From Fennellomyces sp. T-0311 (lineage: Eukaryota > Mucoromycota > Mucoromycetes > Mucorales > Lichtheimiaceae), in assembly GCA_025266875.1 (NCBI GenBank), contig JALLLT010000004.1, positions 1,483,820 to 1,547,819 on the forward strand: 64,000 nucleotides of DNA, in the 5' to 3' direction. Positions 1-34,688 of the stretch are shown here, in pieces. The notes under the pieces are model-generated. The model made no database searches. It was not told the origin of the DNA and worked only from the letters and a program-made list of their open reading frames with translations. The translations under genes were made by a program, and so were the position numbers. Numbering within the stretch: the stretch's first letter is position 1; every line of letters starts with the position of its first letter.

Positions 1-34
1 TATCAAAAGGGATCTTGGCTGTGTTGAACTTTCT

Positions 35-1353
35 GTGACGCACACCGAGCATATCCGAGTTGATTCGGAACGTCAAACACTGCGCGAGTCTGTTCCTCAG
101 GAAGTGATTGATTACATCACAGAAGAGAGCAATACTCTACATGCAGCGGACGTGTATCACAACGTTGTTACGCGTTTCCCAGCTCATGACATAACCTGTA
201 TGCAGGTTTACTACTGGTGGGGCGTGTCCTTCCAAGACCAATATCGGCTGCATGATGATCAAGTCGTTTCCTCGCGAATGCTCCTTGAACGACATCGCGA
301 AAATGGCTTCCATGAGGTATGTAGAAGAGCGTTTCTTACTAATGACAAGCCTTGTTTTTGCTTTACAAGCTAGAAATAGGCGTAGAATAGTGGTATAAAA
401 GTCTCATGCAATTATAATAAAATTAGGTGTATTGGAGACATGATTTTCATGCTGTTGCATTTGGTTTCATTACCCCGTTTTTTAACACTCTGGTTGGATG
501 CGAACATGTGGAAGAGTACTGTATTGATTCCACCTTCAAAACAAACTGCCTTGGATGCGAGCTCTATGGCATCATTGCCAACGTTAATGGTGTGGGATTT
601 CCGATCGGCTACCTTGTGTATACCTCGTTCACTGGACACCCTCCACTCACCAAGACCGACATGCTGAAAGGGTTCTTTCGCGCACTGAAGGCCCGCGGCT
701 TCAATCCGACGTTCATGTTTTCGGATAAGGACCAAGCCCAGATTAGCGCTATCACAGACATTCTGGAAGGAAGCCATCTACGATTGTGCCTTTGGCATTT
801 GCAACGCCAGATTGATCGTAAGCTGTCACAGCGAAGATCCAATTCGCTCTCAACGAGCTATGTTCCAAGTGTCGCGCGGGAAGAATTTCCTTTCATTGGC
901 GATGACTTCAATCCGTCCATCGGAGGCCGTGGCAATGGTGTGATCTGTCAGCAGCAATATCGCGATAGGATTGTTGCAATTGTGACTAAACACTATCAGA
1001 TGCATCCACTGATTCCAGATGGTATGGACATATTCGCCTTACGTGTTATGTATTCTTCGTTGCTAACATTCTCTAATATCACTCTATTTTTTTTTAAAAA
1101 AAAAACGACTAATATCACTTATATAGGAGCGCAACGACGTACATCTGAAGAAATCTTTCAGTATGCCGCAAGGGAAATGTACGATTATTGTCGTGAAAAC
1201 GGGTTGATCGATGCATGGGCCTACCTATACCACCAATGGTACACCAGAAGTCGCTGGAATCAATGGGCACGAAGCGTGATTCCTGACAGGATTCCTGCAG
1301 GAAAAACCACTATGTTCATTGAGGCACATTGAAAGGTATTGAAGCGCAACTAC
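35..1353 (+). pseudogene. MULE A transposase, N-terminal and DDE part
   Basis: The first exon (35 to about 320) aligns with the pre-catalytic exon of MULE B and C and ends HDDQVVS..., matching HDDQVTS in copy B. An intron ends at about 426. The next exon carries the MULE DDE core: first Asp in CIDSTFKTN, second Asp in MFSDKDQAQ followed by LCLWHLQ, and Glu in FIEAH. A second intron lies near 1043-1126. The codon after FIEAH is TGA at 1330-1332, where copies B and C have Trp, so the gene is dead. Reading continues through this stop as KVLKRNY and is cut at 1353. It resumes at 24431 as LYRRPNARLDML, giving the same order as copies B and C. Confidence 0.8.
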
Positions 1354-2536
1354 CACTGGGAGTAGCAAAGATAATGCTAAAGAAAGAAAGTAATGCATTA
1401 TCACGAGCGTTATTGATAATGCTCGTGATAATGCGTTATTTTTAAAAGTACAGCATTGTTTTAAGGAAAACTCAAACGTATCAATAATGCAGTACTTTCA
1501 AATAATGGGTTACTTTAGTGGGTCGCCGATCAGAGGATGTTTATTTTTACTGAAATCGGCATGTACAGAACCTTAATCGCTGTGTAATGAACCATTTCGT
1601 GAAGGTCAGAACAAAAGGTCCCTTGAAAACCTAAAAAGATGAAGATCGTGATACACTGATTATCAATATCGGAAAGAGCATCCCGAAGCAGATGGATTGG
1701 TATAGGATAGATTATCATTTTGTCAACGTAACAGCAAGGATAGATGGTAGCGATTGTAGGTTAAAATTGAATAGTATTTTATTATCAGAATCGAATTTAG
1801 TATAGTATAGTTTCTATATATCAATAAATATGGGCACTGCCAGTAATGCAAAGCAACTGGCGCAGGAAGTATAGATCCTTCCAAAGAAATGGTAAACGAG
1901 GTTGACTAGAACCGAAGAAGTTAGAAGAAAACGCATATAGCAGTATTAAAGTAAAAAGCTACCTTACGATTCTGAGAGTACTACGAGTGTAGCATCCATG
2001 TAGTCAAGTCCCATGAGCTTCGTGGCAATTGGATTTCATGAATTACGTACCTCTGTAGCTTGAGCCTATGAAAAGAAGTGCCGGTCGTAGTAAAGTAAAT
2101 GCTATTATGAAGTAAAAGCGTGAGAAGCAATGGGGCAGAATGTAAGCTTACTAAACGGACAGTTTTATGCTTTGGCTTTTAATAAGGTTGTGTTAAAAGA
2201 AGAACATATGGTTGTTGAGTAGCGCTGGTGATGTTGCGTTGATGAAAGGATTAGCGGTTATATAAGACGATGTGAAAAAAACTTACTGTATAGCCGATGT
2301 AGTGATGGTAAAGAAAGCGAAAGAGATGAAAATCGAGCTGTGTATTGAACGGTGGATTTTTATACTCATGGAAGTAGCGGTCACCATAAACTTTTGTAGT
2401 GACTAGCCGCTTTAAAGTACATAAAGTGTAAGAGAACTCGATAGTTCCGGTTCTTCAGTTACATTCCATTCTGACTTTTTAACTATCGTAATATTAGCAT
2501 TTCTATGGAAAGACATTGTACTTACTTGTACATTAG
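1354..2536. other. CACTA X left subterminal region
   Basis: No gene is supported here. The first 110 bp hold repeated ATAATGC words in both orientations, including a palindromic pair around 1405-1432 with ACGAGCGTTATTGATAATGC at its centre. Such subterminal repeats are typical binding sites for CACTA accessory proteins. The remainder is AT-rich and presumably the promoter region for the gene starting at 2537. Confidence 0.5.
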
Positions 2537-2576: not shown

Positions 2577-3643
2577 GCTCCGACTTGCACGGGAGCCAGA
2601 TGCTTCGAGCTATGGCTAACATGAGCTCAGAGATTCAGCACCTCACGGATGAAAACCGGCAGCTGACTGCCACGCTGGTGGAACACGGGAGTTGCATCCG
2701 TGCGTTGAGCAGAGCTTCAGGCACCCAGCCAGTAGCCGATGAGCCTACGACTGCTGAACCAGCAGTTGTTGTGTCTGCACCACGTAGATACACCAAAGAA
2801 GAGGTTTTGGACATTTGCGTAAGAGAACAATTAAAGAAAACTTAGTTATCGCATATTTATACAGCATGTTAGAATCATGTCCATGCAAGGGTGAAGGAGT
2901 TGGCCACCTGTGTGGAAGAACTGTTGACGTTCAACTTTGATCTGGACTTTCGCCGCGGCGTCAATAAGGCGATCAAAGTGGACGTGATCGCATATGTACG
3001 AGAGCAGACGGGCGGCCAGGTGGACGATCCCAAATATGTGAAGGATGCGCTGCTCGCGTACTTCAACACGTTGAAGCGAGCTTACCACCTGCCTGCCGCT
3101 GGATACGAGGAAATGTTGCAGCGCAACAGACGCAGGGCGCGCGTGGCTATGGTTCGCATCATTTTCAACCGAGAGTGCAAAATAATATACTAACAACCTA
3201 TATTATGGTGTATAGAAAATTGAGGCACGCGAGGCAGCCTATGCTGACCACAAGATTGCGCTGGAGTTGGCGTACCCAGATGGGTTGAGCGTTCTTGTCC
3301 CGGAGTGCACTTCGGAAGAGGAGAGTGATAAGGAAGGTGATGCGGATATCTTGTGTATCCATATTCCTGGTTTCCGCAAGCCCAGCGTAATTATTTTTTA
3401 GTTGCATATGCGATTTGGAGTTAATTAAGCTGTTGCATATGTAGGTTACGGAGTACCTGACCAAGCTGGACGCGATGGTGAAGGCAAAGAGGCAGTGCCA
3501 TCGCTCCTCTGCTGTGGCCGGAAGCAGCAGCAGCACTGGTGGTGACCAGCAAGTTGTGGCAGCCGCTGGTGTAACCACAGTTGGTGGTCGTGGAAGAAGT
3601 GGCCGAGGCAGCCAGAGCGGCAAGCGGTTCGTCCGAAAGTATG
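2537..3643 (+). pseudogene. CACTA X accessory gene (TnpA-like), 5' part, cut by MULE F
   Basis: The spliced gene starts at the ATG at 2537 with a run of ten Asn from a CAA/AAC microsatellite. Exons I can follow are about 2537-2819, 2872-3149, 3217-3388 and 3445-3643. Exon 1 ends RRYTKEEVLDIC; exon 2 begins NHVHARVKELATCVEELL; exon 3 has KIEAREAAYADHKIALELAY; exon 4 has GGRGRSGRGSQSGKR. The protein has a helical, probably coiled-coil N-terminus and an Arg/Gly-rich C-terminus like a minor-groove binder. The exon stops at the 10-bp duplication flanking MULE F and continues at 20436. The DNA-binding role is inferred from composition and element type. No catalytic motif is seen. Confidence 0.6.
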
Positions 3644-3656
3644 CGAGGTCGTTATT

Positions 3657-3697
3657 CAACATCAAAAATTACATCAGAGCTTACTTTCCAGTCACAA
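3657..3697 (+). repeat. MULE F left terminal inverted repeat
   Basis: The 41-bp segment beginning CAACATCAAAAATTAC matches the reverse complement of 20373-20413 at nearly every position. It sits 13 bp inside the target-site duplication. The outermost bases of the element are less well conserved between the two ends. Confidence 0.8.
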
Positions 3698-3770
3698 TTT
3701 TTTCTTTTTTTTTTGAAGTTCCATCTGTCATATAGAGCCTTTCACGCGTTTTTCGTGTTATTTTATTGAC

Positions 3771-4325
3771 ATGGCCTCTGCATCTGAAGACTTTGGGTAC
3801 CTCATCCGCGTCCATCCAAACTACCCTTCCCTTGTATTTAGAAAAGAGTTTCAAACCATTGCCTTGTTTAATACTTGGGTTAAGGAGAACCCAAACCAAC
3901 ACGCCACCTTCATCACCAATCGTAAGTATGCGCCACCCAAGGCTTCAGATGTAAGCCAGACTCCTGGTACTCGTGGATCTGGCCGTCCCAAGACCCTCCT
4001 CAGTAGTACGACATATATTTGTGACCATGCAAGATGTGCTCCCCCTCGCAATCCAAATGGACCAAACAAAAAGCCTCGAACCTCAAAGAATACCATCAAA
4101 GTCAATTGCCCTGCTAAATATCTTGTCAAATACCTGCTGGATGGCAAGGTCAAAGTAAAATACCACTGGAAACATGAAAACCATGATCCTACCGAAATTA
4201 GCGATGCTGTCCGTTCTAAACTTCCTCCTACAACGCTTCAATGGATTCAAAATCATGTTGACAACCATCTGGACTGGGAAAAAATTCAAGAACATTTGCG
4301 ATTGACAGAGGAGGAACTTCAAGCA
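3771..4325 (+). pseudogene. MULE F FAR1-type transposase, N-terminal exon
   Basis: The ATG at 3771 opens an exon of about 185 residues ending TEEELQA at a GTAAGT donor. It has a zinc-binding/FAR1-like look: YICDHARCAPP, VNCPAKYLVKYLLDGKVKV and YHWKHENHDP, a CC...HxH arrangement seen in WRKY/FAR1-type domains of MULE transposases. The following intron is cut 9 bp in by the left end of CACTA Y. The DDE-core exons that should follow are absent. The gene resumes only at about 18890 with the post-DDE region, so the product cannot be active. Confidence 0.65.
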
Positions 4326-4334
4326 GTAAGTGTA

Positions 4335-4500
4335 CACTATGGGAAAAAATCGTGTTAAATCTTGTTAATTCGTGTTATGGCTTGTCAGATTTTTAACAAG
4401 CTCGTTAATTCTTGTTATTTCTTGTCGAGTAATTTTAGTGGAAAACTCAGCTTGTTATAGCTTGTTAACTCATGTTATTTCCTGTTATAAATGTATTACA
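4335..4500. repeat. CACTA Y left subterminal repeats
   Basis: About 165 bp carry roughly ten copies of a short word close to CTTGTTAA or CTTGTTAT in both orientations. The same words recur at the other end (12255-12400). Arrays like this normally bind the element's accessory protein and define the transposon end. Confidence 0.6.
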
Positions 4501-4547
4501 AATTATAAAATATGGTAATTTATATCAGGTAACGCAAATACTCAGCT

Positions 4548-5044
4548 TTATTCATTGAAGTTGTATACTAAGTGGTTTGCAGTGCTTCCAAGTTGCGTGC
4601 TGCCCAGATCCATACCTTTATACAGATAATAAACCCTATCCCCATAGATCGACGATCTAAGCATCCCAGCAAACCCTTCAATATACTGAACTTCCATAAT
4701 GTATCGTCTTGTACCATTCTGAGTCGTTCCATAAGGCGCCCCAACATCGTTCAGTTGCACGTTCTCAATAATGTTCACCAAACACAGCATCTTTTGCTCG
4801 CCTAAGGGCCAGAAGATATTAGGTGGATGAGCACCAATATGTGCACATGTACCTTCAAATTCGTGGACAAAAAAAAGTTCGATCTCACAGAAAAACCTTT
4901 TCCAGGCGTCCACACATTTCGCTCTTCGTCTTCTTGCATTGAGGTCGACTGGTAGCATTACTGTAACAAAATATGACGGCTTGGCGGAGCGATTGTTTTG
5001 AAACGCAAGCGAGTCGTAAGTATTGCCACCGAAAAACAGGGTTA
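4548..5044 (-). pseudogene. CACTA Y transposase, C-terminal remnant
   Basis: The minus-strand reading 4958 to 4548 encodes about 130 residues including AHPPNIFWPLGEQKML and NIIENVQLNDVGAPYGT, ending LVYNFNE. A further upstream stretch to 5044 appears coding in another frame. The position next to the CACTA end, downstream of the Tnp2-like N-terminal exon on the same strand, suggests it is the C-terminus of that gene. The DDE centre is absent, so this is a remnant. The family assignment rests on position, not on a recognised motif. Confidence 0.4.
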
Positions 5045-5306
5045 AAGTCCAAACTAGCGTCAGCCTTCAAAAAGTACAGTCACGCAGTCACAGTTATGGT
5101 CTGTCACGATCCTGAGGTGTATAATACTCGTTATATATATATGGCATGATGGTTAGAGCACGAGCTTTTCAATCATTTTGTCCTCGGTTCAAATCCCAGT
5201 AAAAGCTTTTTACTTTATTTTTTAAAATATTAACTAGTAGTCCAAATGCGATGTATTATATACCATTCGACGTCTTTTTTTACGCGCTATCTATTAAAAA
5301 TAATTT
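5045..5306 (+). repeat. Merlin left TIR
   Basis: This TIR matches the reverse complement of 9837-10099 over its whole length with scattered differences and small indels. It contains a TA-rich tract, a tRNA-like segment (5143-5210) and a conserved CCATTCGACGTC stretch near its inner end. Confidence 0.8.
5143..5210 (+). other. tRNA-like segment inside Merlin left TIR
   Basis: The segment begins GGCATGATGGTTAGAGCAC, close to a tRNA D-arm and A-box. It contains an exact B-box match GGTTCAAATCC, and a TTTTT run follows shortly after. In the opposite TIR copy the T-arm can pair perfectly (CTGGG / CCCAG around TTCAAAT); here one base breaks that stem. Acceptor and anticodon stems do not pair by eye, so I do not call a functional tRNA. 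Best description: a decayed tRNA-derived sequence that may keep an RNA polymerase III promoter. Confidence 0.55.
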
Positions 5307-5516
5307 CAAAGCGCTAGGGGAAGTAAAAAGGCAAGTATACTATAATCTTGATAAGTATTTCTTTTTTTTTTTTTTTTACTCAGAGTTCTGACTTGGGTCT
5401 AAATTTTTACTTTTATGTAACAGTCTATATTTTGAAATACAGCAGTATATAAAAGTATTGGCAGCTTAGTTTTTGCTCGGTTTGCTTCTTCTTCACTTAT
5501 TTTTTTACTATTACTA

Positions 5517-6696
5517 TGTCTACTTAGCAATTCATTCAAGATTTTTATGCTGAAAACCTAGTTCATGTGTGTAATGCCATGAAATCCAAGATGCCTTTGA
5601 CTCCTATGGAATTGGTGACCACGTTACAGCCGGCTCTGGACCATGAGAACACTGGTTTTACATCTAGTTCTGACTTTTTACCTTTCAACTCTGAACCTGT
5701 TGCCATCTTGTACTTATTTTCTGTTGGTGTTTTTTATGATGGTATTACTTGTAATACATCAACTTGCTCCAATCACGGTCATCCGCTCAAGTTGAACCTG
5801 GTTACGAAGTACTGGAGGTGCTCTACATGTGGCCATGGTAAATCTCTTTTGAGAGATACCATTTTTTTTCAACAAAACACACCAGTTCACAAGATTCTAA
5901 AGTGTTTTTATTACTTTTTACATAATGTGGAATGTCAAGCTATTGCTACCTTTGTGGAATTGGATCGCAAGACTGTATATACACTTACTAAAAAGTTTAA
6001 AAAACTAATCAAAAGTGATCTTTACTCTGCTACTGAAGGTATGTATTAGTACTACTTAATTATACTATATTAGATATTGACACTTTTATATAGATGTCCA
6101 GATTGGTGGTCCTGGTATTATTGTTGAGATTGATGAATCAAAATTTGGAAAACAAAAGTATAACAGAGGCCATCGTGTTGAAGGTAAATATTATATATTT
6201 ACCTTATGTACTGTATTTATTAATAATATAATAGGTGTCTGGGTTCTTGGTGGAGTTGAGCGCACACCAGAGCGTCGCATGTTTACTGCTACAGTTACTG
6301 ATCGTTCAGCAAATACCTTGCTTGATCTGATTGTTAAGCATGTTCATCCAGACTCAATTATTTTTACTGATTGTTGGGCTTCTTACAATCAGCTATCTGG
6401 AACACATGGCTTTGTTCATAGAACAGTTAACTATAGCCTTGGTTTTATTACTCCTGATGGTGAAGTTCACACCAATACAATTGAAGGTATGTTTTGTTTT
6501 TAAAATATAACTTATACTTACTTTTTTTTAGGCACTTGGAATGGTATCAAGCTTAGACTGTTTCCACGTTCTTATGCGAAGAATAGTATTGAGTATAGCT
6601 TGGCTTACTTTCAGTGGCGTCGGCTTTATAAGGAGAAGATGTGGATGCGTGCAATTCACTGTCTTAGAACAATTTATCTTATAGATGAGGATAGTA
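5517..6696 (+). pseudogene. Merlin/IS1595-type transposase, interrupted
   Basis: Four exons can be read (about 5517-6040, 6094-6184, 6236-6487 and 6533-6696) with three short introns. The zinc ribbon is visible (TCNTSTCSNHG, then YWRCSTCGHG). The DDE core follows: Asp in VEIDESKFGKQKYNRGH, Asp in FTDCWASYNQ, Glu in HTNTIEGTWNG, the IS1595/Merlin signature. The first ATG (5517) is followed by TAG at codon 4 (5526-5528). Either translation starts at a later Met (5567) or the gene carries a nonsense change. Harbinger-2 interrupts the last exon after DEDSRE. Confidence 0.85.
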
Positions 6697-6969
6697 GAGA
6701 GTTTTAGGACTTTGCAAAATTGAGATTTTACAAACTTCAATTGGAAACTGGTGTAACTTGAGTGGGGTGTCGCTGTGCGATTTTGCAAAACATTTTGAAA
6801 AATCGAGGTTCTGAAAAAGGATGATGGGTTATTTAACCGGTCCAATGAGAATGCCCCTTGTTATCTTGACAAACTACCTGACAGCTCAGCTCTTTTCTTG
6901 CACTACAAAAAAAAAGATGGTCCAGCCCTTCCTTCACTTGCATCTTTTACTTCTTTATCCCCGCGGAAA

Positions 6970-8094
6970 ATGAATCACAACTTCGAAATTATTGACGAAA
7001 CTGAACAATACGTTCACATGCAGCGTGCTAAAGATGCCACCGCAGAAGCAGCTGCACGTCAAACGCGCAACAGCGAGATCACGTCTGAAGTATGTCAAAT
7101 TTATGCAAAGTAAACGCAACTTGTTATTCACAAATTATTTTGTATTATACGTATAGGCTACTGCCCATATACAAGAATTTGTGCCTGTTGAAGACGATAC
7201 CGGATTTGACGAAGAGAGTGTGACCCCGGTTGCCCAAGCATATGCGAAAGTAACTAAGGGCAAGAAGCAGAACAAGAAGAAGGCGACCAAAAATGATGAG
7301 GCTAAGACAAATATAACTGCGTCCAAAGCACTCGATGATTTGATCTTAAACCATGTGCTTGACGTCCAGCCTTTTGTACAAAAGTACAGGGACGTAGGAC
7401 CAGCATGGCTTGAAGTGGCCGAAAGAGTCAACAAGGATGCAGTGAAGTACATAAAGAATGGACTCATCACTGAGAAGGAAATTACCGATGTATATTGCAA
7501 ACGCCGGTTCAATGCTTTGAAGAATAACAACACGCCTCATCTCAAACGCTTGGCTAGGTCCTCTGGACTTGGCGGTATTCAGCCTTCGCCTTTCGAAGAG
7601 AAGGTTATAAGTCTCATTCAAATAGTATGTATAGCATCAATAACGAGTGCATCTACGATATTTTACAAGCAAGAAGAAATAATACAATTGCATAGGTGAA
7701 CGATCAGAAGGCGAAGGTGGATTATGAGAAGGCAGTAAAGGAGAAAAAACAGGAGCGCAAACATCAGGCAGAGAAGGAGATGATAGCCGCCTCACTTATT
7801 CGTCGTCGGCAAGACTATGAAGAGGGTAGCAGCAGCAGCAATGCTAACTCTTCTGCTCTTAAAAAAAAGAAGGGCAGTCCAAGAAATATGGCTGATGGTG
7901 CCCTTGCAGAAGAAATCAAGGAGCTTGCCGAACTGTGCAAAACACACCGCCAACACGTTGAGAACGCAAAGGCAATGCAAGACAAGGTTGACAGCCTGGA
8001 AGCTGCAGTTGCACGCCTAGACAGCATTGTGGAAAGGCAAGATGAGGCAATCCAATACCTTTTCAACGCCTTGTACCCTCCACAACAACAATAG
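6970..8094 (+). CDS. Harbinger-2 Myb/SANT-like DNA-binding protein
   Basis: Three exons: about 6970-7089 (MNHNFEIIDE... to NSEITSE), 7158-7624 and 7696-8094. A Lys-rich stretch (KVTKGKKQNKKKATK) precedes a Myb/SANT-like trihelix: ALDDLILNHVLDVQPFVQKY, then VGPAWLEVAERVN, then VYCKRRFNALKN. The C-terminal exon is a long charged helix with DSLEAAVARLDSIVERQD, probably a coiled coil for oligomerisation, and ends in Gln. In PIF/Harbinger elements the Myb-like partner brings the transposase into the nucleus and binds the element ends. That role is inferred here from family. No stop or frameshift is seen. Confidence 0.75.
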
Positions 8095-8146
8095 TATATG
8101 TAAAAATAAAATCATAAATATGTTGAAATAACTATTCGTATTAGAA

Positions 8147-9552
8147 TTAATTATTACGTTGACGGAATGCTTGATTTGCCCCACTAAGATACTCTTCTAG
8201 AGTGGGAAGTTGGATACAGAAGTATTTTGCTGATTGCCCTCCTCCCAAGCATACGTTTATGTTCTTGAACAAGACGGCAATAGGATAGTACATCCCAACT
8301 GGGCTCAACAATATCTTTTGGTTCTTTGCGTAGTCAACAAATCCAAAAAGATTGAGTGTTCTTCCGAATTCCCATTCAACCGAGATTCTGATCTTTGACA
8401 TCTGTTGGTTCCGAATGGATTCAGGGCTAGTACGATCATCTACGGTGCTCGTTTAAGTATTGAACCATAATATGCTTATTATACATTTATAAAATTAAAT
8501 ACCTCGAGGAACACGGTGAGGCGAACCCAAGTTTGGGTGTTGACGGTATGCAAGATCACCATACACTATGTATCGCGATCCATTATCAAAATTCAATAAG
8601 CTCTCGAAGCGCTCAAGCAGACGAGATTCAGTTAGAAGATACCCATCATGGTGAGCACCACAAACTGGGCCATAAAGACATGCTGTTATACCATCAGGAC
8701 ATGCTGTTATACCATCAGGCGTGGTAAGAGCTTGAAATTTTAGCGCGTGCTTATGCTGTAAAATAAATTACATACGTATTCCGTTGTTAGCAACCTTATG
8801 CTGTATAAATATGGATGTCAGTTGCATGCTTACTTTGTGCCCATTGAACAATAACTCCTGATCCTCAATTGGCTTACAGATGCCTCTAACCGTACCGTCA
8901 AGAAAGCCAATGCAATTCTGAATTGGTGCTCCTTCAAAATATGAGCATCGGTTATTCATGTTCTATAATAGCCACTTCTCTTTATGTATATATAATTATA
9001 CCTTTGCCGTGGATAGCATTCGCGAATCGAGAAAGCTTCTGCGGTGTGAATTGGCTCTCGGCAAATTCCAACAATCCAGCGTACTTGTCGTAGAGGTAAT
9101 CGATAACGCCGTTGAAGATGATGCAAAGGGCAGTCTCTGACCGATCAAACAGGTCGTCCATGTCACAGTAACGTTGCGGATATGCTAGTCGACGCAGACA
9201 AATTGCCATTGCTTCTTCTGTTGGGACTTGAAAACGAGAATGGATGCTATCTTCATTGAAAATGAGAGATGGCGGTAGCTCCATTACTTCAATGATTTTT
9301 CTGATCTGTTGATCCACTCAGAAGTTAATATTTGAAGGAAGTTAACAACTTGAGAACTAGCTCAAGATTTCTGTTTTTACGTACCTGTGCCTTTGTAAAG
9401 CGAAACTTTTTGAGACACTTTTCGTCCGTAATGCTGTCTAAGTTGAATGCCTTTCTTGGTTCTCTCGCAGCGAACTGTCTATAAATACTGCGCGCCAACA
9501 GAGTTTCAAGATTGACAAGGTTCTGGTCAAGAATCTCAGTATAGGTGGACAT
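8147..9552 (-). CDS. Harbinger-2 transposase (DDE_Tnp_4 / PIF type)
   Basis: The gene starts MSTYTEILDQNL at 9552 and has five exons, with introns of about 40-75 bp. An N-terminal helical region (FQVPTEEAMAICLRRLAYP) precedes the catalytic core: first Asp in IGFLDGTVRGICKP, second Asp in YGDLAYRQHPNLG, Glu in ISVEWEFGRTLNLF. These match the LDGT, GDxxY and VEWxF motifs of PIF/Harbinger nucleases. Exon 4 contains an in-frame 21-bp tandem duplication, so DGITAC occurs twice (near 8677-8718). This could affect folding between the first two catalytic residues. Otherwise the gene is open. It ends 53 bp from the stop of the Myb-like gene. Confidence 0.8.
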
Positions 9553-9836
9553 GGTTGAATATATAAAAAATGGAAGAGAAAGAGGTGAAAAAAGTCAACT
9601 ACAATATGACAACTGCTATTGTGCTTTTAGTAGATAAGCCTCTTCTGTGCAACTGTTCTTTCTTTATTTGTAGCAGCAGAGCCTGCCTCTTTCAAATCCA
9701 GATAACACACCGTAAATGGCAGGTAACACATTAAAATTCAATTTTGCGAAGTCCTAAAACCCTCTAGTAATTCTGAAAATATTAGCAATGTTTAGAATTT
9801 TTGAGATAAAGTGGTTATTTTAGAACTTTTTAACGT

Positions 9837-10099
9837 AAAATAATTTTTAGTGAATAGAGTGTGAAAAATGACGTCGAATGGTATATAATACATCGCGTTT
9901 GGACTGTTAGTTAATATTTTAAAAAATAATGCAAAAATATTTTACTGGGATTTGAACCCAGGACAAAATGGTTGAAAGGCTCGCGCTCTAACTATCATGC
10001 CATATATATATAACAAATATTATATACCACAGGATTTTGACAGACCATAACTGTGACTGCGTGACTGTACTTTTTGACGGCTGACGCTAGTTTGGACTT
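9837..10099 (-). repeat. Merlin right TIR
   Basis: Reverse complement of 5045-5306 with scattered differences. The 70 bp between Harbinger-2 and this TIR (9770-9836) are the 3' tail of the Merlin element and hold no recognisable coding sequence. Confidence 0.8.
9935..10001 (-). other. tRNA-like segment inside Merlin right TIR
   Basis: On the minus strand this reads GGCATGATAGTTAGAGCGCG, then a B-box GGTTCAAATCC inside a perfectly pairing T-arm (CTGGG TTCAAAT CCCAG). It is the better preserved of the two copies. Acceptor ends do not pair, so a functional tRNA is unlikely. Confidence 0.55.
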
Positions 10100-10920: not shown

Positions 10921-11059
10921 TGAGCTCTTGTCGCATAAACGAGGTCTGGCGAAAATCAAAGGCTATGTAGAATATGCGTATGCGAGTGTGACTGTGAAAA
11001 GAGCAAAGACAAAAAAATTTATAATAGAAAACTGCTTACTCTTTCCCATTTTACTGAAC
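10921..11059. promoter_or_regulatory. Bidirectional promoter of CACTA Y
   Basis: Only 139 bp separate the transposase start (10920, minus) from the accessory gene start (11060, plus). A shared promoter is inferred from this spacing. No clear TATA box or operator is identified. Confidence 0.5.
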
Positions 11060-12027: not shown

Positions 12028-12254
12028 TGAATGTAAGTTCCTTTAATACACTGTTTATAGTTAATGATTCTTCTTCCAGACATGTATTCTTGATCACTTT
12101 TCTTGAACGATGATGTACTTTTGTGGCGTCTCATTCATACCTGGATCACATTATGGCTATATAAATGATAAAATAAATGGAAATAAATGAATAGTTTATT
12201 ATACAAGACTATTAATTAAGCACTGGAAGCAGAAAATATACAGCTGAAACGCAT

Positions 12255-12400
12255 ATACAAAATTTTGTTATTTCATGTTAAGCCTTGTTATTTCATGTTC
12301 ACTTGTTACCTTGTTAAAATTTTAAGTAGCCACAAGAAATAACAATAACACGATCTAACATCTGGTAACAAGATCTAACAAGTTAAATTTTCCCACAGTG
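12255..12400. repeat. CACTA Y right subterminal repeats and TIR
   Basis: This array of TTGTTA/TAACAA words mirrors the one at 4335-4500 and ends in TTTTCCCACAGTG at 12400. The 12028-12254 interval before it is AT-rich with no gene seen. Confidence 0.6.
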
Positions 12401-12488
12401 ATATCTGAGATATATGGGATGTGCTGGCGGAAATAATTGATGAAGCCTAGGTAGGACATCACCTCTTTGGCAGTACGCGGTACTGGCC
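12401..12488 (-). pseudogene. Gypsy G1 pol, continuation beyond MULE B
   Basis: The reading KWPVPRTAKEVMSYLGFINY followed by FRQHIPYISDI is the conserved region between RT and RNase H of gypsy elements. It picks up exactly where 16018 leaves off (SWPVP), sharing the 9-bp duplication GTACTGGCC. Confidence 0.8.
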
Positions 12489-24430: not shown

Positions 24431-24718
24431 TACCTATATCGCCGGCCCAATGCACGATTGGACATGCTGGTATATGTCATCGTTGCGAAGTATGTACCTA
24501 GCTTGTGCCATAAATTCATGAAGGACACCGTTCGCTCTCGTGAGGCCACTAGATGGGAGCGAAAGTTTGTCGCTGAATGGAAAAAGTGCTATAATGCACT
24601 TCGAACAACTGATCAGGATTACTGGGAGACATTCCAGACATCAGTTACGGGATGGACATGTGGCTGTAGAAGCTACTTATATAGCCCTTTCTTGCTATGC
24701 AAGCATCTCGTGAGAAAT
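24431..24718 (+). pseudogene. MULE A transposase, post-DDE and SWIM segment
   Basis: Begins at the duplicated TAC and reads LYRRPNARLDMLVYVIVAK, aligning with LPRPRLDLLVYIITTQQ of MULE B. It continues to a SWIM finger WTCGCRSYLYSPFLLCKHL. Reading is cut after CKHLVRNT at 24718 by MULE C and resumes at 32952. Confidence 0.85.
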
Positions 24719-27700
24719 ACAAACGCTACGCGTTTCAGAATTTTCACGGATCAGCATCCCCAGTTTCGTATTCCGATAAGTGAAAATGCTGAGTGTGGCT
24801 GGTTTAAGGATGGCTCACGGATACATAGGAGAACTCCGCAGTCAGGACTTGATGAAGACTTTATAGACGAATGGCTTTATGCATGCTGCCTGTTTGTTAA
24901 ACTTACCTTAAAACTGGTGTGCGGTATCTTTTTATATGATAGTCATCAACACATTACCTCCATTCTAATAAGGCTTGTCATATAATATATGTGCTATATG
25001 TTGCAATGAAGTGTATAAAAGTCTAGTTGAAGATAAAAAATATTTGATGCACGATAACGTCTATAAAGTCTATATATAATTAAGAAGGAAAAAAGAGAAA
25101 CAAAAAGAGAAAGAGAAATGTGTAATAAAAAGTGCATTTACGCTGGATAATAGCGAGTATATGGATGGTAGCCGTTGCGCGTTGTGTTTTGACGTCTTCG
25201 TACATTGCGATGCTGATGGATTACTCTCAAGTATCGATCGGTGTTGTTGCTTTGAAACGCATTGTCGAACACTTGTCGCTAGTTAGGGGGTAGCATATTT
25301 CTATATGCTTCCCGATCCTGCTGGAGTTGACGTAGCGAGCCTTGCAGTTCTTGAAGTGCTCGCTGATACTGCTGGTACGACTGGAGTAGACTCTCTTCAG
25401 CGTTTCCCATACGGGTAAACAAGTCATCTTCAGCTGCAACAGCTGGTTCCTCGTCATCGTCATCAATAACAATGACTTCACCGTCATTATCGTCAACTAC
25501 TTCGGTTTCTTCATCATCGTCCGAATTCTCGTCATCCCCATAGTCCACTAGCAAGAGCTGGTCATCATCTTCATCCTCATCAGCAAGGTCATTTTCTAAC
25601 GCAGGCTGATTGATTGATGGATCTAGAGGTTGGGTTGAAGCGGTGATCTTAGCACTGAAGCGCTCTACCTCCATAATGATATTGCATCCAGTTAACATAC
25701 CTTCCTGGATAAAGATATCCACAACGTCTGTAACTGGTAGATTTCTAGGGCGCTGATCGGAATGCTGGTTACGGGGTTGCCAGGGCGGGGGAAGTGCAAT
25801 CAACCGAAAGGGATACTGATTACTCTATATATATATGAGCTATAATCAGAACAACACAAATAATGTAAGCGTCCATATTGCAAACGTACAGGCTTAATTT
25901 GCACATAAGGTATAGTATGCGCACGATGAATGTAAACCTGACGAGCAGCAAAGAGTGCTGTTGATCGTCTATGCTCATTGTACCGGCTAACCAAGTGCTT
26001 ACACAGCATAAATTTGCTGGCAGCAAATGATGGGCAACCACATGTCCATTGTGCCAAAGATGGCATGTATACCTCATCTGCATCGTCACGTTCACCGACG
26101 TCTCGAAGTGTTTCGGTGTGAACCTGCCACGACTTCGCAAACTTCATCTCCCATTGCAATGCCTGGCGTCGATTTATAATCTTCAGCTCAAACTTTGCTC
26201 TTATGAGCGGAAGCTGCTGATTCGTGATTATATATACCAGCATATCGAGTCTTGGCCGAGGAAGGTTAAGGAGAAAATCCCTTTTCAGCACCCTCCACTG
26301 TGCCTCGATCATCATCGTTGTCTTGGCCATCGGGATGTCATCTTCACGAGAGCTGCGAGCCCATCGATTCCACCATAGCGCCTGGTACCAACGGTTGTAC
26401 ATATAAACCCATACGTCAGGAAGGTCGTTCCGAACGCAATAGTCGTACATCTCCCGGCCACACTGCTGCCATATGACGCTGGCCTGACGATAGCCAACTA
26501 ATCTCGATATCAGCAACACGTCTTATATCTACATAAACCACACTTATAACGTACCACCTGGAACAGGGATACGTGGATGCAGATGATAATGTTCCCGTAT
26601 CATAGACAGGATCTGCTCTCTCATGGACGCATCTGGGCAGAGCTTTCCACTACGATCTTCATATGGAACAAACTGGGTCGAAACAAAAGGGAATTCGCGA
26701 CGCGCAGCGTAAACATCATAATGAGGATCTCTGATCTTATTCTCATTCAGTCGCAACTTAACGGCATGATCAATATGCCATAGGCACAGGCGCAGTGATC
26801 TACGACCAAAGACTCTCTCAATGGCGTTGATCTGGCCTTGATCTTTATCCGAAAACACAAACTTTGGTCGTAAACCATTGTTGTGAAGACCCCGGAAGAA
26901 TCTATAGATAAAATCCATTCTAGAAGGTCTTCTCACTGCATCTGATACGCGCGCATTACTGGCTCCCAAAAGCATATATGCAATTGGGAAGCCACACCCA
27001 TTGAAGTTTGCAACGACACCAAAAAGCTCATACCCCATTCGATTCGTTTTATATGTCGAATCGACATGAAACTCGGTCGCATATGTAATAGGACCTGCCG
27101 CCACATTGAATAGTTCCGTGACGAATCCAACACCAGTAAAACCATCAGCAGAAAAATGTAAAATCTGTTTATTTTTATTCATTGTAAATATATATACTAT
27201 ATATTGTCTCTTCCATTAGTGTAGCATAGTGATCATCGCGTATATAGCTACCGTTATGCACACATGGTTGTCTTCTACGTACCTTTCGAATTCCATTGAT
27301 TCCACTATCAATATGCATAATTGCAGATGTAAGTTGATTGGGATGCAATTGGTGCCGATGCCGTGTTGTTCGAGACCACAGCGCATAGATCTATCAATAT
27401 GTCAACGTACCAATATCTTCGCTGAGCCATTGAACTTACCTGCGACTGGGTTACTGTTCCACCTGCAGCAGGAAACTCGCGCACCATGCGGCGATACAGT
27501 CGCTGAGGTGTATCGTTCTCCGCATTATCCACAACAAACTGCTGCACTTCCCTTGGTATTTCCACGCGAACGTGTTCCAGGGGTGCAGGAGGAGGGTGGA
27601 TGAAGTTATGTTTGATCAAAATGTAAACATATTGATTGCGTTGATCAATATAACCAATAATCTTCCCATTGCAATCGTATGTCGTCATCCGAGAATGCAG

Positions 27701-27811
27701 GCGAGCGCGATCCTCGTCTGGTACCTGACGCTGCGTACTGGTATTTTGACAACATACGCACTGGAACGCGACAGCATGACGCAACCGTGTATCGCCGAGA
27801 AACCTGAAGTA

Positions 27812-27981
27812 TTGGATTTTTTTTTGGATTTGGCGGACTTGATTTTTTCAATTTGGCAGAGTGTGAATTTCCAATTTGGCACAAGGTTATTTTAACTTGG
27901 CAGAGGTGATTTTAGTATTGGCATTCACAAAAACTTATTTGGCAGAAGGCTTTTTTTTCATTGGCACATTAAAATAACAGA
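27812..27981 (+). repeat. Tc1-like element left TIR with TTGGCA array
   Basis: About 170 bp matching the reverse complement of 32291-32459 almost perfectly. A WTTGGCR word recurs about eight times at 15-30-bp spacing, continuing just inside the TIR. This looks like a reiterated binding site. Confidence 0.85.
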
Positions 27982-28102
27982 TTTGGCACGTCATACAGAG
28001 CAAATGGTAACGTTAAGCAATTGGCAGAGACACTTTCAATATACATATCTAGATAAAATATGATGGGATACGTATGACAAAAATATAAGAGAAAAAAAGA
28101 GA

Positions 28103-29819
28103 CTACAAATCCTCCATGTTGATAGCCCTCTCAAAAAATGACGTAGAATGTTCGATCCATCCATAACAGTCCGTTGCAGTTACTAAATGTGACGATTTCA
28201 CAATACGATCTGTTAATGTATCCTCGGTGGTAAGGGTTTCGCGCTTGACACCAGCCTTCAATTTGGACCAAAACAGTTCGATCGGGTTAAAAACTGGAGA
28301 CCAAGGTGGCAAATACAAGACACTGTATCCCCGACTCAAAATTGCATCTTGAACTGCTTTTGTCTTGTGAATCGTCGCATTGTCGAGCACCAAAATTCTT
28401 TTCTGCATTCCGAGGCCATCGAGCACATCCATAAGTTCTTCCACAAAGGCTTGGAAGTGCTCCGATCGTGTTCCAACCTTACCAACGACTCTTGTTTCGC
28501 CATTAGCCGTCTTGGCTCTCTTTTGACCAGTAGCTTGTTGTGGCTTCCGCATGCCAAGATGAACCACTCCTTCACTTGTAATGGCACCCAGAATCGTAAT
28601 AGTGACACCTCGGTATTTCGGAATCATCGCCCTAGCAGGATGGCCTCGTCTGGATCGTCCAAAATTTCTCTTGATATGAAGGTTGAAACCGGCTTCGTCG
28701 ATGAAAACGCACTTGTGGTAGTCAATCTTGGTTGCGATGGTCCATTTAGCCCAGTCTGCTCGTTTCTCCTTGGTTTCAGGGCTATTACGTGCTGAAGAGT
28801 GCTTCTCGAGCTTCTTCATCGTGAGGCTGCATTTTTCGATCAGATGCTTGTGAAGACCACTGAGAGTAATCCACACGTCAAATTTTTCCTGTAGAGCCTG
28901 CCTGGCTTGCTTCAGAGTTGGAGTGGCATCCTCGTCGTAAAACGCCAGCAGGAATTGAGTGTGTTCCTCGGTAAGTATGGGCTTGGATCCCCCTTTCTTG
29001 TTCAGCTGACTCGGAAGATATGGTTCTCCACTTGTGAAACGTTCCCAATAACGGAGTGCTGTACGGTATGGGATTTCAATTTTCTTCATTTCTGCAGCTT
29101 TGCGAACATTGAGTGTGACATTCTGCACTGTCTCGAGAAACTTGACAATCAGTTTATCGTTGTATTTCTTGTAAGGCCCTAATTTGACTTATTAGATATT
29201 GAATTTGCAAGAAAGTTTTCAGATAACATACCTCTCGGGGTTTTTAACTTCTTTTGGGGGATTTTTGCGTGGTCTGCCTCTTCCTCGTTTTGGAGGAGCG
29301 GATACTTGGGACGACGAAGTAGACGACTGAGCTTGAGACGGAGTGGATCGTTTGCCTCGGTTTGAGGTAGATGCTTTGCCTGCAGAAGTACTGGCGACAG
29401 TACTTCCTGGATCCTGTTCTTACTATTAGCATAATAATTTTACCGAATAAATAGCAATGTACCTGATGAGCAAATGAAGTTTTCGTCATTGATACCAATC
29501 TCTGTACTCCGTCGGTACTATTCGCCTGGAGGTAATCATGCTCGATAAGGTGGAAGTGGTCATCAATATCGATTGGTTCTTCGTAATAGTCAACATCGTC
29601 TTTGTCAGGAACAAGAAGACCTTCTTCCGTAGTTTCTGCTTCCTCTTCTTGTTCTTCTTCCTCCACCTCCTCGTCGGAGTCATCATCCTCATCCTCATCA
29701 GAAGAGGGATAATTGAAGATATCGAGAACATCGGGACTCGGCAAAATGAAATCATACTCGACGCCTTCCATGGCATCGTAGTTACTGTGTTCGTTAGGAA
29801 TTAAAATAAAAGCGGACAT
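28103..29819 (-). CDS. Tc1/mariner DD34E transposase with acidic N-terminus and AT-hook
   Basis: Exon 1 (29819 to 29463) starts MSAFILIPNEHSNYDAMEG and is strongly acidic (EVEEEEQEEEAETTEEG). Exon 2 (from 29413) is Ser/Thr-rich and encodes an AT-hook, KRGRGRPRKNPPKE. Exon 3 (about 29178-28103) has paired helix-turn-helix regions (YRTALRYWERFTSG; LKQARQALQEKFDVWITL) and the catalytic core: Asp in CVFIDEAGFNLHI, Asp in LVLDNATIHKTKA, Glu in SPVFNPIELFWSKLK. Exactly 34 residues lie between the last two (DD34E). Exon 3 is open. The exon 2/3 junction leaves a one-base mismatch in my reading, so either a different splice is used or there is a frameshift. Confidence 0.8.
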
Positions 29820-30840
29820 TTTAAAGGGAACAATAAGTTTTATGAAGAGCTTTATCTTATTAACCTGGTCTTTTATATATTCGTATTCGGTAGTAGATCC
29901 ATCAAAGGTAATTACTCTTTCATTTGTAGTAGATCAAAGCTCTTCTTCAACGATGTCACAGTTTACCAAATACACTTTGCTGTCCTTACAATCGGTCATT
30001 TGCCCAAAAAAGATAATTATGTGCTTACAAGTTGTTCAGCCGACCTGAATTATCGGAACCAATAGCAGCTTTATATTTCGTTTTGTATTACCTTCATAAT
30101 TTGTTTTATACACTGTTCTTAACTACATACTCTGTGTTACTTATGCTTAATTGGGTAGCCTGTACTACGTGTTCCGTTCCATTCAAGCTTTATGACTGCG
30201 TTCCATTCCATTACATAAGCTTGTTCCGTTCCATTCACACTTTATGACTGTGTTCCGTTCCATTAGTTGTTACACTTTCTTCTGTTTTTGGGACTTTGCC
30301 AAGCATTACATCATAACTTTTCATATGGAAATGATGTTCCGTCATCCGTACTTGCAACTCTTTTCCCTTCGAAAATTCTCTTCCTCAGCTATTGCTTAGC
30401 ACTGGCATCCCGTTCACTTTCTTCATATTTTTTAAAACATTATATAAAAAATACAGATTAATTTTAAATTGCAGAATAAAATTCTTTTGTGTTAATGGCA
30501 AAATCAGGAGTAATGCCAATTGCCATGGCGGCATGTCACGTCATTGTCTTTTTCCTGGTGCACAGACAGCTTGTCATTACCAAAAGCAGCTGCTTCCCCT
30601 TAATGCTCAGCACTTTTTAATACCGTAAGTTAAAGTGCTTCTTCCTAAAATGATGCATTATCCGTCGTATTTTATCATCGTCATCGTCTTCGCCATCGCG
30701 CTCAATTTGACTTCCTTAAAAGTCATGTTCACCGTTGGTTACGATCTTATGCAATATTTCATGCTGCTAATAAAGAGACGCTCTTTCGTCGTTGCTATAT
30801 TCGTATCATTAACGAACACTTCGATTTCTCTAAATCCGCC
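29820..30840. other. Spacer between divergent genes of the Tc1-like element
   Basis: About 1 kb with no supported gene, presumably holding both promoters. Around 30165-30270 there is a short tandem array of GTTCCGTTCCATT units with TTTATGACTG spacers. Confidence 0.5.
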
Positions 30841-32082
30841 ATGAATGACACCACTTCTAACACAGAATCCACTTGTCCCTCTGCTTTCGCTACCACTCCC
30901 TCTATAACCTCAAGATTTATTAATCCTCGTACTGCCAACAGTGAAGAAATGATCGGGTATCTTCAATCTGTTTCGACCCCTCCGTCACCAACTTTGCCTC
31001 CAATTGCTCTTACCGACGATGATATACGAGACACTATTGGAGTTTCAGAAGATGAAGATCCACTTATCGGTAAGTTTTCAAGAAACACAGCAAGTACTGT
31101 TATATTCTAACAATATAGCATAGAGGAATTTATTAAAGTGCTTCACGCAAAGAGAGACGGAGTTGAATTCAAGTTTGATATTGAGCTTCCAGTTGTTGCT
31201 GAAATCAAGGAGCATATGGATTCACAACACGAACGCATCCGATTGCAAGATATAAAAATCAAACAACTACTCGAGCAACTTCAACTAATTCAACAAGGCG
31301 AAGAATCAAACCAGCATCACTATCTTCAGCAATTGCAACAGCTGCAGCACTCGTATCAGGCTGAACTCGAACAAGTTCAGCAATCACACCAGCACGAGTA
31401 TCTCGAGCAGCTACAACAGCTTCAACGATCATATCAGGCTGAACTCGAGCAAGCAAAGCATTCGCAACAGCAACAATATATTGAAGAAATCCGAAAGCTC
31501 GAACAATTGCATCATGTTCGTCTCCAACAAGTTCAAGAATCCCAACAGCAACAACATCGTGAACAACTTCAACAACTTCAGCATTCTCACCAGCTTGAGT
31601 TGCAGCAATCTCAGCAATCTGAACAGCATCGTACACAGCTTCAACACCTTCAGCATTCTCACCAGCTTGAGCTGCAACAAAGCCAACAAATGCAGCAGCT
31701 TCAATTGTTGCAGCTACTCCAAGAAGTTTATCAACCGCGCAAAACGCAAAAACGTGTAAGACGTGAGGAGGAAAAGTCAACATCAACAGAAGCTGCAGCA
31801 TCGTCAAGTGTAGCAACAAAAGTGGAAAAGAGAAAACGTGGAGCCGAAAATGATCCTAAGCAATGGTTAACTGCAATATATCAGTATGCAAACAAATTGA
31901 GAACAGCACGGGAGATAGAGGATAATTTAGGATTCCCGAAGGCAACACTGCAACGGAGAAAGGACTTGTACGTAAAGAGCACAAAATACCGACGATTTAT
32001 CAACAGGCTATACGAGGATCAACCAGATACTATAGATGAAGTGCTTGGCTCGCTCGAGCGATTGTATATGATGGAGGAATAA
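30841..32082 (+). CDS. Accessory coiled-coil/HTH-like protein of the Tc1-like element
   Basis: Two exons (30841 to about 31070; about 31129-32082) give about 390 residues. The N-terminus is Ser/Thr/Pro-rich and acidic (LTDDDIRDTIGVSEDEDPL). Then comes a long Gln-rich coiled coil made of degenerate tandem repeats of about 26-30 residues, with recurring HSYQAELEQVQQSHQ, HSHQLELQQSQQ and LQQLQ. A basic stretch (RKTQKRVRREEEK; VEKRKRGAEN) precedes a C-terminal helical domain, TAREIEDNLGFPKATLQRRK, resembling a helix-turn-helix. I do not recognise a named family. A role in end-binding or assembly with the transposase is inferred from its place inside the TIRs. No lesions are seen. Confidence 0.75.
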
Positions 32083-32290
32083 ACTTTTTTCCGAATTTGC
32101 GTTTTTTTACATTCTCCCATTTGGTTTTGCATGGTGTTCCGAAAGTAAAACAGGGTTATAATAAGAATATTCATAACCTTCCAAACTACATATCTAGCCT
32201 GCCAATTACGAGGAAAAATCAGGCATTAAGTAATAACCCTGCCAAATAATTTTATAACGTGAGCCATTCTGTTATTACGGTGTCGCCAAG

Positions 32291-32459
32291 TCTGTTATTT
32301 TAATGTGCCAATGAAAAAAAGCCTTCTGCCAAATAAGTTTTTGTGAATGCCAATACTAAAATCACCTTTGCCAAGTTTAAAATAACCTTGTGCCAAATTG
32401 GAAATTCACACTCTGCCAAATTGAAAAAATCAAGTCCGCCAAATCAAGAAAAAATCCAA
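32291..32459 (-). repeat. Tc1-like element right TIR
   Basis: Mirror of 27812-27981 with only a few substitutions and homopolymer-length differences. Confidence 0.85.
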
Positions 32460-32951
32460 TAGTATTTGTGGCCGACACGTGCTTCAATGCGACTGACAAT
32501 GTACTGAAGCAACGCACGATCCTCGGTAAGCTCCAACATTGGTCCCTCGATACGAACATCAGCTTCAAACACGTAGGGTTCCCCCTCTAACAAATTCATT
32601 GGCTTTAATTAGTACTTTATTTTGAAAGCAACCTTTCATTCAATAATCCACCTTCAGTACGTGCTGGAAGTCCTTCAATTACTTCGTCCAGGGTCAGGGC
32701 AAAGTCGGTCATAGGACGTCCCACGTTGCTCTGTCTCTGGCGGCACACCAAGCACGTCTTATAGCTATCTGCTTTTCCAGTAAAGAGGTCGACGGAGCGA
32801 TTGCATTTGCAATTGGAGCAGTATCGTAAAATTTCCATGGTAAAGAGGATGAAGAAGTGGCTTATTCCCGAAAAAATAACATTATTACCCTCTCGGTGAA
32901 TGAATTGTAGGGTGGCTGATCCGTGAAAATTCTGAAACTGGTAGATGTGCG

Positions 32952-33655
32952 GTGAGAAATGCAGGTTGGGGGAAATTTGCTGTTCGTCAACATTTTATTC
33001 AACGGAAGAGTACCCCTCCATTTCTTTTCATACACGATTCGGTAATGAGAAACATGGTATTGCTTGCTTACATTATTGATATTGAACACTTTTTCAACCT
33101 ACGCAGCTTGCTGAGAACGTTTTTCGTGGTATGAATGTGGCTGCAAACTTACAGCCTCCACCTCTCATTGCCAACAGAGCCGCGGTTGCCACCACCAATA
33201 ATGCCACCGAAACGGATATAAACACTGCTGCCGACCCCATCGTTATTGTCATCGATATCTCTGACGATGAAAACGAAAACCAAGAATATGACGACTTGCC
33301 GATTCCCTCAAATGCTGCCCCCACAAATCTCACCATCCTTTTGGACCAACAGCGTGAGCGTTTACAACTAGAACTACAGATGCAAGCTCATAGGGAACGG
33401 CAACGTCAGCTACAACGCCGAGAAGAGCAGTTGCAACAGCAACTACAAGAAGTATGACGACAAAGAGAGATTACAGATCGGCGGTTTAACACCGCAGTTG
33501 ATAACTATAGATTGCATATTACTGACAAGCAGAACGATCGCTTTCAACAAGCGATTGATCAAGATCGTGTTGACACTTTTCTCGCTGATGTGATCCGCCA
33601 CCGCCGTAGAAGAACTATGCCAACTACATATGGCGAAACCAATCATAATACGTGA
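32952..33655 (+). pseudogene. MULE A transposase, C-terminal part
   Basis: After the duplicated GTGAGAAAT the frame continues RNAGWGKFAVRQHFIQRKST, matching the post-SWIM segment of MULE B and C, to an intron near 33042-33110. The next exon starts near AENVFRGMNVAANLQ, has the acidic segment IVIVIDISDDENENQEYDD and a coiled coil (QLQRREEQLQQQLQEV). A TGA at 33455-33457 interrupts it. The frame continues RFQQAIDQDRVDTFLADVIR, the counterpart of the MULE B C-terminus, to a stop at 33653-33655. This is the second nonsense codon in MULE A. Confidence 0.8.
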
Positions 33656-34688
33656 CATGCATAGTTTTTTTTTAAAGTTTTTCGATATAGACCTTTTCTT
33701 TTTCTTACCTTTAAATTGTTATAAATATTATATACTTCTTCTTATTTCTTAAGCTTATGTGTCACAGAATATATTTTGAATTATATACTTATTTTTAAAA
33801 AATATCTATAGCTATCACTTACTTCCATTCATTTCACCGGGTAATATTTACCCTGATACGTAACTCTCTCAATTTTTCCCCGGGTAAATTATTTTCCGGG
33901 AATGGGATTCGTAAATTTTCAGCGGTCCCTATGGCACGTGCTACGATTGCATAACCAGTTTATACAAAATGGTATTCAAAACGTTTATTTTATTTTATTA
34001 CTATGGGTTATTCACCCCTACCATTGCCAATTCCTCCCCTTTACTCTGCCATTGCCCATTCACCTGTGGCTCAAGGTATACTTTCCATATCTAGCTGATC
34101 TTCATCTCAGCGACACGAAAATTATGCAATCTGAAGATTACACGCAAGATCAGAGAACGTGCGGTATCGTTGGCTGGCAATGAGAGCTTCAATTGTTGGA
34201 ATCCTGATTGAACCGATCGCATACCCCATTCGCTTTTTCTATCTGAAAAGGTCAATGATACAGTAAAAAGAAAAGCAATCTTTGTTGAACACAGTTAAAT
34301 GATAAAAAAGGAAAAAGAAGTCGATTCGGCCAAGACATCTAAAAGAAGAGTACACACACTGGCGCGCTCACTCGATACCAGTCCAGTACTTCTCACTTCA
34401 ATTACTAATCTATCGTTCTTCACTTTAATTACGATATGCTGAAATACTTAAGCTACTGTCCTTGTCAGTGTATCCACGGACGCAAAAGGTATATAAGCCA
34501 TACATTTGAACAGCGTAAATATTCAAGTACCATTCATCCATTTTTACTACTAAAACTTTCATGCTGCCCTTGTTCCATTAACCATGCTTGCCAAGTGGCT
34601 TGCGACACCGCAAATGCAACCACAGGCGGAAAGCAACCCTTTGGGATTGGGTGTAAGTACTTGAAGGAAAAAAAAGTGAAGAAACTTA
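33656..34688. other. MULE A tail and unassigned AT-rich DNA
   Basis: MULE A probably ends near 33940. From there to 34688 no gene, RNA or repeat can be supported. The last bases before Harbinger-1 are its target TTA (34686-34688). Confidence 0.4.

Follow-up and report, generated by a model that had tools for sequence, protein, structure and literature searches.

How many insertions built a dense block of transposable elements in the genome of a Mucorales fungus, in which order did they arrive, and what has been lost from the block since? These questions are raised by a stretch of 64,000 nucleotides from Fennellomyces sp. T-0311 (GenBank contig JALLLT010000004.1), in our labelling C117:1483820-1547819, which we call the window and whose right end is the contig end. 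A first-pass annotation, made from the letters alone, had described here a six-level stack that can be peeled apart by its target-site duplications (TSDs). Our analysis indicates that ten transposable elements nested six deep very probably form a genuine and recently built nest. Including the left tip of its outermost element, the nest is 34,742 bases long and occupies C117:1483017-1517758. Nine of the ten elements are DNA transposons and the tenth, G1, is a retrotransposon.

The tips and duplications of the elements were placed to the base within the window. For seven insertions the two flanks were joined with one TSD copy, or directly in the case of a Merlin-like element that has no TSD, and queried against the same genome (45.6 Mb, 182 contigs), for which the best 40 of 74 candidates were scored. 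Uninterrupted paralogous sites, hereafter empty sites, were read base by base in 30 locus-by-junction comparisons (CACTA X 4, MULE F 7, MULE B 7, Harbinger-2 4, MULE C 3, Tc1-like 5). One genome assembly was studied; C and L labels denote its contigs and loci.

Six insertions with empty sites

All the repeats listed in the first-pass annotation exist at the places given: TAC at 1351-1353 and 24431-24433, CGAAAGTATG at 3634-3643 and 20426-20435, GTACTGGCC at 12480-12488 and 16018-16026, GTGAGAAAT at 24710-24718 and 32952-32960, TAGTA at 6692-6696 and 9765-9769, and TA at 27810-27811 and 32460-32461. They mark insertion sites rather than chance repeats, because the joined flanks match uninterrupted paralogous sites. 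Such sites were recovered for six of the seven insertions queried (CACTA X, MULE F, MULE B, Harbinger-2, MULE C and the Tc1-like element), so that six of the nine insertions inside MULE A are backed by empty sites with a single-copy TSD. The TSD was single-copy in all 30 comparisons, three of which (L051, L052, L060) differ by one base within it. With flanks of 300 bases per side the alignments run unbroken over all six junctions, and identity between the joined flanks and their uninterrupted counterparts reaches 100% over 220 bases. Moreover, when the interrupted genes are joined at their flanks the open frame continues over all six joins: MULE A at CACTA X and at MULE C, CACTA X at MULE F, G1 at MULE B, the Merlin-like element at Harbinger-2, and MULE C at the Tc1-like element. 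The first-pass annotation had counted four such junctions. Independent copies of six families (MULE A, B, C and F, CACTA X, Harbinger-2) carry different TSDs of the expected length. Finally, among 48 joined-flank rows no half-match ends at a junction, the window itself excepted, so nothing points to duplication of the nest as one unit. The proposed nest order and six-level depth stand, with these six steps confirmed by empty sites, and peeling by TSDs works for the same six insertions; CACTA Y, G1 and the Merlin-like element cannot be peeled in this way.

MULE A (plus strand, level 1) is the outermost element, as first described, and occupies 1-33939 of the window, its own sequence being 1-1353, 24431-24718 and 32952-33939. 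The stack had been taken to start at window position 1. The true left tip, located in a fetched upstream stretch, lies 802 bases before the window (C117:1483017). The TSD is GATACGATTG on the left, outside the window, and GCTACGATTG on the right (33940-33949), with 9 of 10 bases equal; an independent copy at C65 has the 9-bp TSD TTGCAGAAC. Once CACTA X and MULE C are subtracted with their duplications, about 3.4 kb of MULE A remain. Similarity to the copies at C65 and C112 extends to window position 33939-33941; for C41 and C127 it ends earlier, at 33776 and 33801. MULE A carries a MULE transposase domain (PF10551, 1.3e-7), and a TGA lies eight codons before the CACTA X join where C65, C41 and C112 have TGG.

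CACTA elements have CACTA-type tips and a 3-bp TSD. CACTA X (1354-24430, minus strand, level 2, in MULE A) appears to be a regular member: it has CACTG/CAGTG tips, the TSD TAC and a tnp2 transposase on the minus strand (20561-22981; PF02992, 6.1e-18). Its empty sites in MULE A are at C65, C41, C112 and C127, and its copy at C108 has the TSD TAT. Among the 120 listed of 270 homologues of its transposase, the best is 61% identical, and the best named ones, from Circinella minor and Mucor saturninus, reach 49-51% and 39-46%.

MULE F (3644-20425, plus strand, level 3, in CACTA X) is flanked by CGAAAGTATG, and its own sequence is 3644-4334 and 18915-20425. Empty sites were found at seven CACTA X loci, and a MULE F copy at C98:43792-48812 has the 10-bp TSD CACCTTCGTC. 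The FAR1 match of the window copy is weak (0.028); the core of this element is deleted. Within a MULE F reading frame, a CAA array followed by CAG (19742-20003) extends for more than 200 bases and exceeds that of the C98 copy in length.

The second branch consists of MULE C (24719-32951, minus strand, level 2, in MULE A; TSD GTGAGAAAT) and, inside it, the Tc1-like element (27812-32459, minus strand, level 3). MULE C has empty sites in the MULE A copies at C65, C41 and C127, a transposase domain (PF10551, 6.9e-12) and a copy at C150 with the 10-bp TSD GGTCAATCAC. The Tc1-like element has five empty MULE C sites and a second copy at C62 (99.0% over 4,626 bp). With its TA target, its terminal inverted repeats (TIRs) and a DDE_3 transposase (28103-29128; PF13358, 3.4e-25) with DD34E spacing as counted by eye, it is best assigned to Tc1/mariner; a second open reading frame (ORF) lies on the plus strand at 31138-32082.

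The two remaining steps with empty sites lie deeper. MULE B (12489-16017, minus strand, level 5) interrupts the reverse transcriptase region of G1 with the TSD GTACTGGCC; seven comparisons show G1 copies empty at this site, and a near-identical MULE B at C105:498921-502447 has the TSD GTAGGGGTT. The one MULE B ORF scanned (13597-14244) gave no Pfam match, and as DNA the element is about 73-76% identical to MULE C copies. MULEs have TIRs and a TSD of 9-11 bp, and judged by these features A, B, C and F all appear to be MULEs: TSD lengths are 9 bp (B), 9 bp (C), 10 bp (F) and 9 of 10 bases equal (A) in the window, and 9, 10, 10 and 9 bp, respectively, at independent copies.

Harbinger-2 (6696-9765, no strand assigned, level 6) interrupts the transposase gene of the Merlin-like element, which is empty at this site in four copies. 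The repeat TAGTA had been taken for its duplication. However, copies at C16 and C123 have the TSDs ATT and AAT, the C123 duplication being exact under a 3-bp parse and showing one mismatch under a 5-bp parse, and the duplication in the window thus reads AGT (6693-6695 and 9766-9768), the element starting with A and ending with T. None of the three copies (AGT, ATT, AAT) shows the TWA of strict PIF/Harbinger elements. All fit the 5'-ANT-3' duplication by which the Pangu group of PHIS is set apart from the TWA of PIF/Harbinger (PMC4482050), and we would place Harbinger-2 there. Like Pangu, it has a 3-bp ANT duplication and a DDE_Tnp_4-type match, but the match of its transposase exon (6.3e-4) is below the curated cut-off, and the placement is made without a phylogeny.

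Two deletions flush with element tips

CACTA Y (4335-12400, minus strand, level 4) sits within the first intron predicted for MULE F and immediately follows the bases GTA. Its CACTA-type tips are CACTATGGG and CCCACAGTG and its flanks GTA and ATA; it has no TSD, one flank being deleted, and its catalytic core is absent. The C-terminal piece of its protein has no Pfam match. The searched stretch 10100-12400 is single-copy, with no DNA-level relative in this genome, whereas the nest's other elements are multicopy. Comparison of the CACTA Y pieces by BLAST with the CACTA X protein and the 120 listed of its 270 homologues gave one match (E 0.42), while tblastn finds clear protein relatives in the same genome.

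G1 (12401-18914, minus strand), which lies in MULE F and is interrupted by MULE B, is probably a Ty3/Gypsy-type retrotransposon, with one long terminal repeat (LTR, about 18580-18914) and matches to reverse transcriptase (PF00078, 9.7e-19) and gag (PF03732, 4.6e-7); its protease match is weak. Read by eye, the copy at C85 also seems to encode RNase H and integrase. Copies with two LTRs lie at C85:986-6323 and C161:420608-425938. Relative to C85, the window copy is without 2,358 bp on its left, including the other LTR.

MULE F itself ends at 4334, in the first bases of the predicted intron, and resumes at 18915 after the G1 LTR. In the C98 copy MULE F runs on past 4334 and matches the window again from 18915, which shows a loss of about 0.7 kb from the middle of the window copy, C98's own 2.03-kb insert set aside. 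That insert (L081/L062, about 44486-46517) is Crypton-like, with a tyrosine recombinase (PF00589, 7.8e-8; PF12012, 7.3e-7), and occupies the same short predicted intron, near the CACTA Y site of the window. We had considered GTAGTA in C98 as an excision footprint of CACTA Y, and rejected it since C98 carries this insert there; the uninterrupted relative L066 has a similar GTAGT stretch (TATAGTAT), which also undercuts the idea.

The host DNA lost flush with the CACTA Y right tip thus amounts to about 0.7 kb of MULE F and 2.36 kb of G1. The joint reads CCCACAGTG|ATATC in the window and GGACTAGTG|ATATC in G1 copies. If CACTA Y and G1 entered MULE F separately, one deletion between two copies of AGTG, the first being the CACTA Y tip, explains both losses. 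It would have brought the CACTA Y right tip up against the middle of G1, at a joint where the two have four bases (AGTG) in common, and taken out the MULE F core together with one end of G1. We consider it probable that the two elements are such sister insertions, joined by a deletion. Alternatively, CACTA Y could have entered G1, at the target ATA, when G1 already stood in MULE F. DNA to the left of CACTA Y, comprising G1's left end and the middle part of MULE F, would have been deleted afterwards at a 2-bp TA microhomology, and the chain would be linear. Indeed, the right flank of CACTA Y is the native ATA of G1 and the left flank GTA has TA in common with it. This order leaves the AGTG match between the CACTA tip and native G1 to chance (about 1 in 256), whereas sister insertions leave just the 2-base TA match to chance (about 1 in 16). 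By this likelihood comparison, our own and made with no tool, we regard entry into G1 as doubtful. 'CACTA Y/G1' had been given as a single nested step. Both indeed lie within MULE F, but there is no TSD and sister insertions are more likely.

The second deletion adjoins the Merlin-like element (5040-10104, plus strand, level 5), which lies between the two halves of CACTA Y. With a DDE_Tnp_IS1595 (ISXO2-like) transposase domain (PF12762, 9.6e-13) and 267-bp TIRs with terminal GG, it would belong to Merlin. Its tips GGTTAAAG and GGATCAAG are common to other copies, and the suspicion that the left tip is five bases short was dropped, as C180, C139 and a second C180 copy also have GGTTAAAG. In none of the three two-ended copies (window, C180, C139) does an 8-9 bp TSD rise above chance; the matches at C130 and C59 cover a single TIR each and cannot be used for this comparison. 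We keep the name 'Merlin-like', since the flanks of the three copies may be rearranged. The joined flanks matched no uninterrupted site in the same genome among the best 40 of 74 candidates. In CACTA Y relatives at C117, C46, C95 and C109, the parts that flank the Merlin-like element here lie 1,887-1,888 bp apart, and in five more (C13, C96, C157, C103, C135) about 1.89-1.94 kb; these relatives are distant (31-50% identity in those rows). About 1.9 kb of the CACTA Y transposase is thus missing flush with the Merlin-like element, and this deletion would have removed the catalytic core. The earlier claim of a Merlin layer in CACTA Y holds as to its position; the 8-9 bp TSD is absent and about 1.89 kb of the host is gone.

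At C180, among the best 40 of 133 candidates, similarity to the left flank of the Merlin-like copy reaches the tip at 12 other places and ends one base short of it at two more; similarity to the right flank starts at the tip in two other places, and no place has both flanks. To the eye, the left flank looks Tc1-like and the right one MULE-like. At C139 a multicopy repeat (C139:1330826-1332802), whose inverted ends measure about 333 bases, adjoins the left tip of the Merlin-like element, and related ends occur near it at C7 and C180. All three two-ended copies thus lie at rearranged or crowded places, and either no duplication ever formed or it may since have disappeared.

Weighing the history of the nest

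The verified layers formed by ordinary insertion into the coding region of another element: CACTA X into MULE A and MULE F into CACTA X; MULE B into G1; Harbinger-2 into the Merlin-like element; and, in the second chain, MULE C into MULE A and the Tc1-like element into MULE C. MULE F also took in CACTA Y and, most likely separately, G1, and the Merlin-like element came to lie in CACTA Y. Two deletions removed parts of the nest, and in each of them one breakpoint coincides with an element tip. We infer that they arose from breaks at transposon ends, perhaps made by a transposase in a failed excision, followed by microhomology repair.

Several observations weigh against parts of this history. 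No TSD was found at the CACTA X copy C169 or the MULE C copy C145. For neither the CACTA Y insertion nor the Merlin step is there an empty site, because the searched CACTA Y stretch has no DNA-level relative in this genome. One C139 row (residues 191-301, 33%) crosses the Merlin joint; we read it as an overextended alignment, the same locus also having the distant second part. An error of assembly, lastly, is countered by the exact TSDs and the paralogous sites and by nothing else. Such an artefact, joining unrelated repeats into all or part of the nest, could be suspected since every element except CACTA Y is repetitive and the window ends at a contig end. The nest, however, ends about 30 kb inside a 1.55-Mb contig, exact TSDs stand beside the tips at six junctions where joined flanks match at up to 100% over 220 bases, and duplications of the right length are not something an assembler creates. 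We consider an artefact extremely unlikely.

Cut-and-paste elements can carry cargo when they move, and some hosts, for instance MULE F with CACTA Y inside, might have arrived loaded, in which case nesting order would not be arrival order. Against this, the searched CACTA Y stretch is single in the genome and no second filled junction was seen among the 40 of 74 candidates scored. A move that left no copy behind would escape this comparison, and we hold movement with cargo to be rather improbable.

All elements other than CACTA Y, for which there is no copy to compare, are recent. In the best locus per stretch, similarity to the nearest copy is 98.0-98.9% for MULE A, 98.0-99.3% for CACTA X, 98.1-100% for MULE F (its CAA array omitted), 99.3-99.4% for G1, 99.2-99.4% for the Merlin-like element, 99.0-99.7% for MULE C and 99.0% for the Tc1-like element; the search tables give, rounded, 99% for Harbinger-2 and 100% for MULE B. 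These values do not follow depth, the Tc1-like element resembling its nearest copy no more than its host MULE C does its own, and we rejected them as an age scale. The stack had also been called a relative clock of superfamily activity, which is too strong: MULEs occur at levels 1, 2, 3 and 5, and the nest orders insertion events at one locus, not the activity of families.

Known nests and the fate of element tips

Classical maize nests are dominated by LTR elements. In the present nest nine of the ten elements are DNA transposons, and six steps are backed by paralogous empty sites in one genome. Reading relative chronology from nesting is an established method (REANNOTATE, PMC2672092; TRANScendence, PMC5657132; TEnest, cited there), and, as in the clusters treated in these sources, elements here are split by younger ones. 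According to PMC2672092 nesting occurs across eukaryotes, and the 'truncated nesting' described there fits CACTA Y/G1. The Pangu study also used paralogous empty sites (PMC4482050). Merlin has been reported in Mucoromycota, and the superfamily as characterized there shares with our element the DDE_Tnp_IS1595 domain, TIRs within 24-462 bp and the terminal GG (PMC8101967); the lack of an 8-9 bp TSD in all three two-ended copies is where ours differs. No paper describing a comparable nest in Mucorales came to our notice, which is weak evidence given the partial coverage of the literature.

Nests may be common in this genome, since other Harbinger-2 and MULE B copies are split into pieces (C99:642611-648985, C152:60439-70832, C13:1008542-1016355). 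Beyond the nest, the window holds a Plant_tran ORF at 35067-35777 (PF04827, 4.5e-29) and, at 42434-58232, ORFs that by eye resemble retrotransposon gag and pol.

The nest is a clean example, ordinary in kind, and its chronology a worked example that brings no new principle; it is nonetheless an unusually clean fungal case, with empty sites in one genome for six of nine inner insertions and two tip-flush deletions, and these deletions are the part worth following. A tentative reading, which we rate as unlikely, is that transposon ends in this genome cut away adjacent DNA. The cases in point are the roughly 1.9 kb of CACTA Y gone in the window and the C180 flanks, which match two sets of loci up to the tip. 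The Merlin-like element might then insert without target duplication, or its ends might later attack the flank; this too we think doubtful, as we do the corollary that the CACTA Y tip acted likewise on MULE F and G1. The locus offers a concrete test of whether tip deletions are targeted by transposases. If they are, nests would shrink by deletions aimed at the tips of their elements, erasing the very duplications that record their history.

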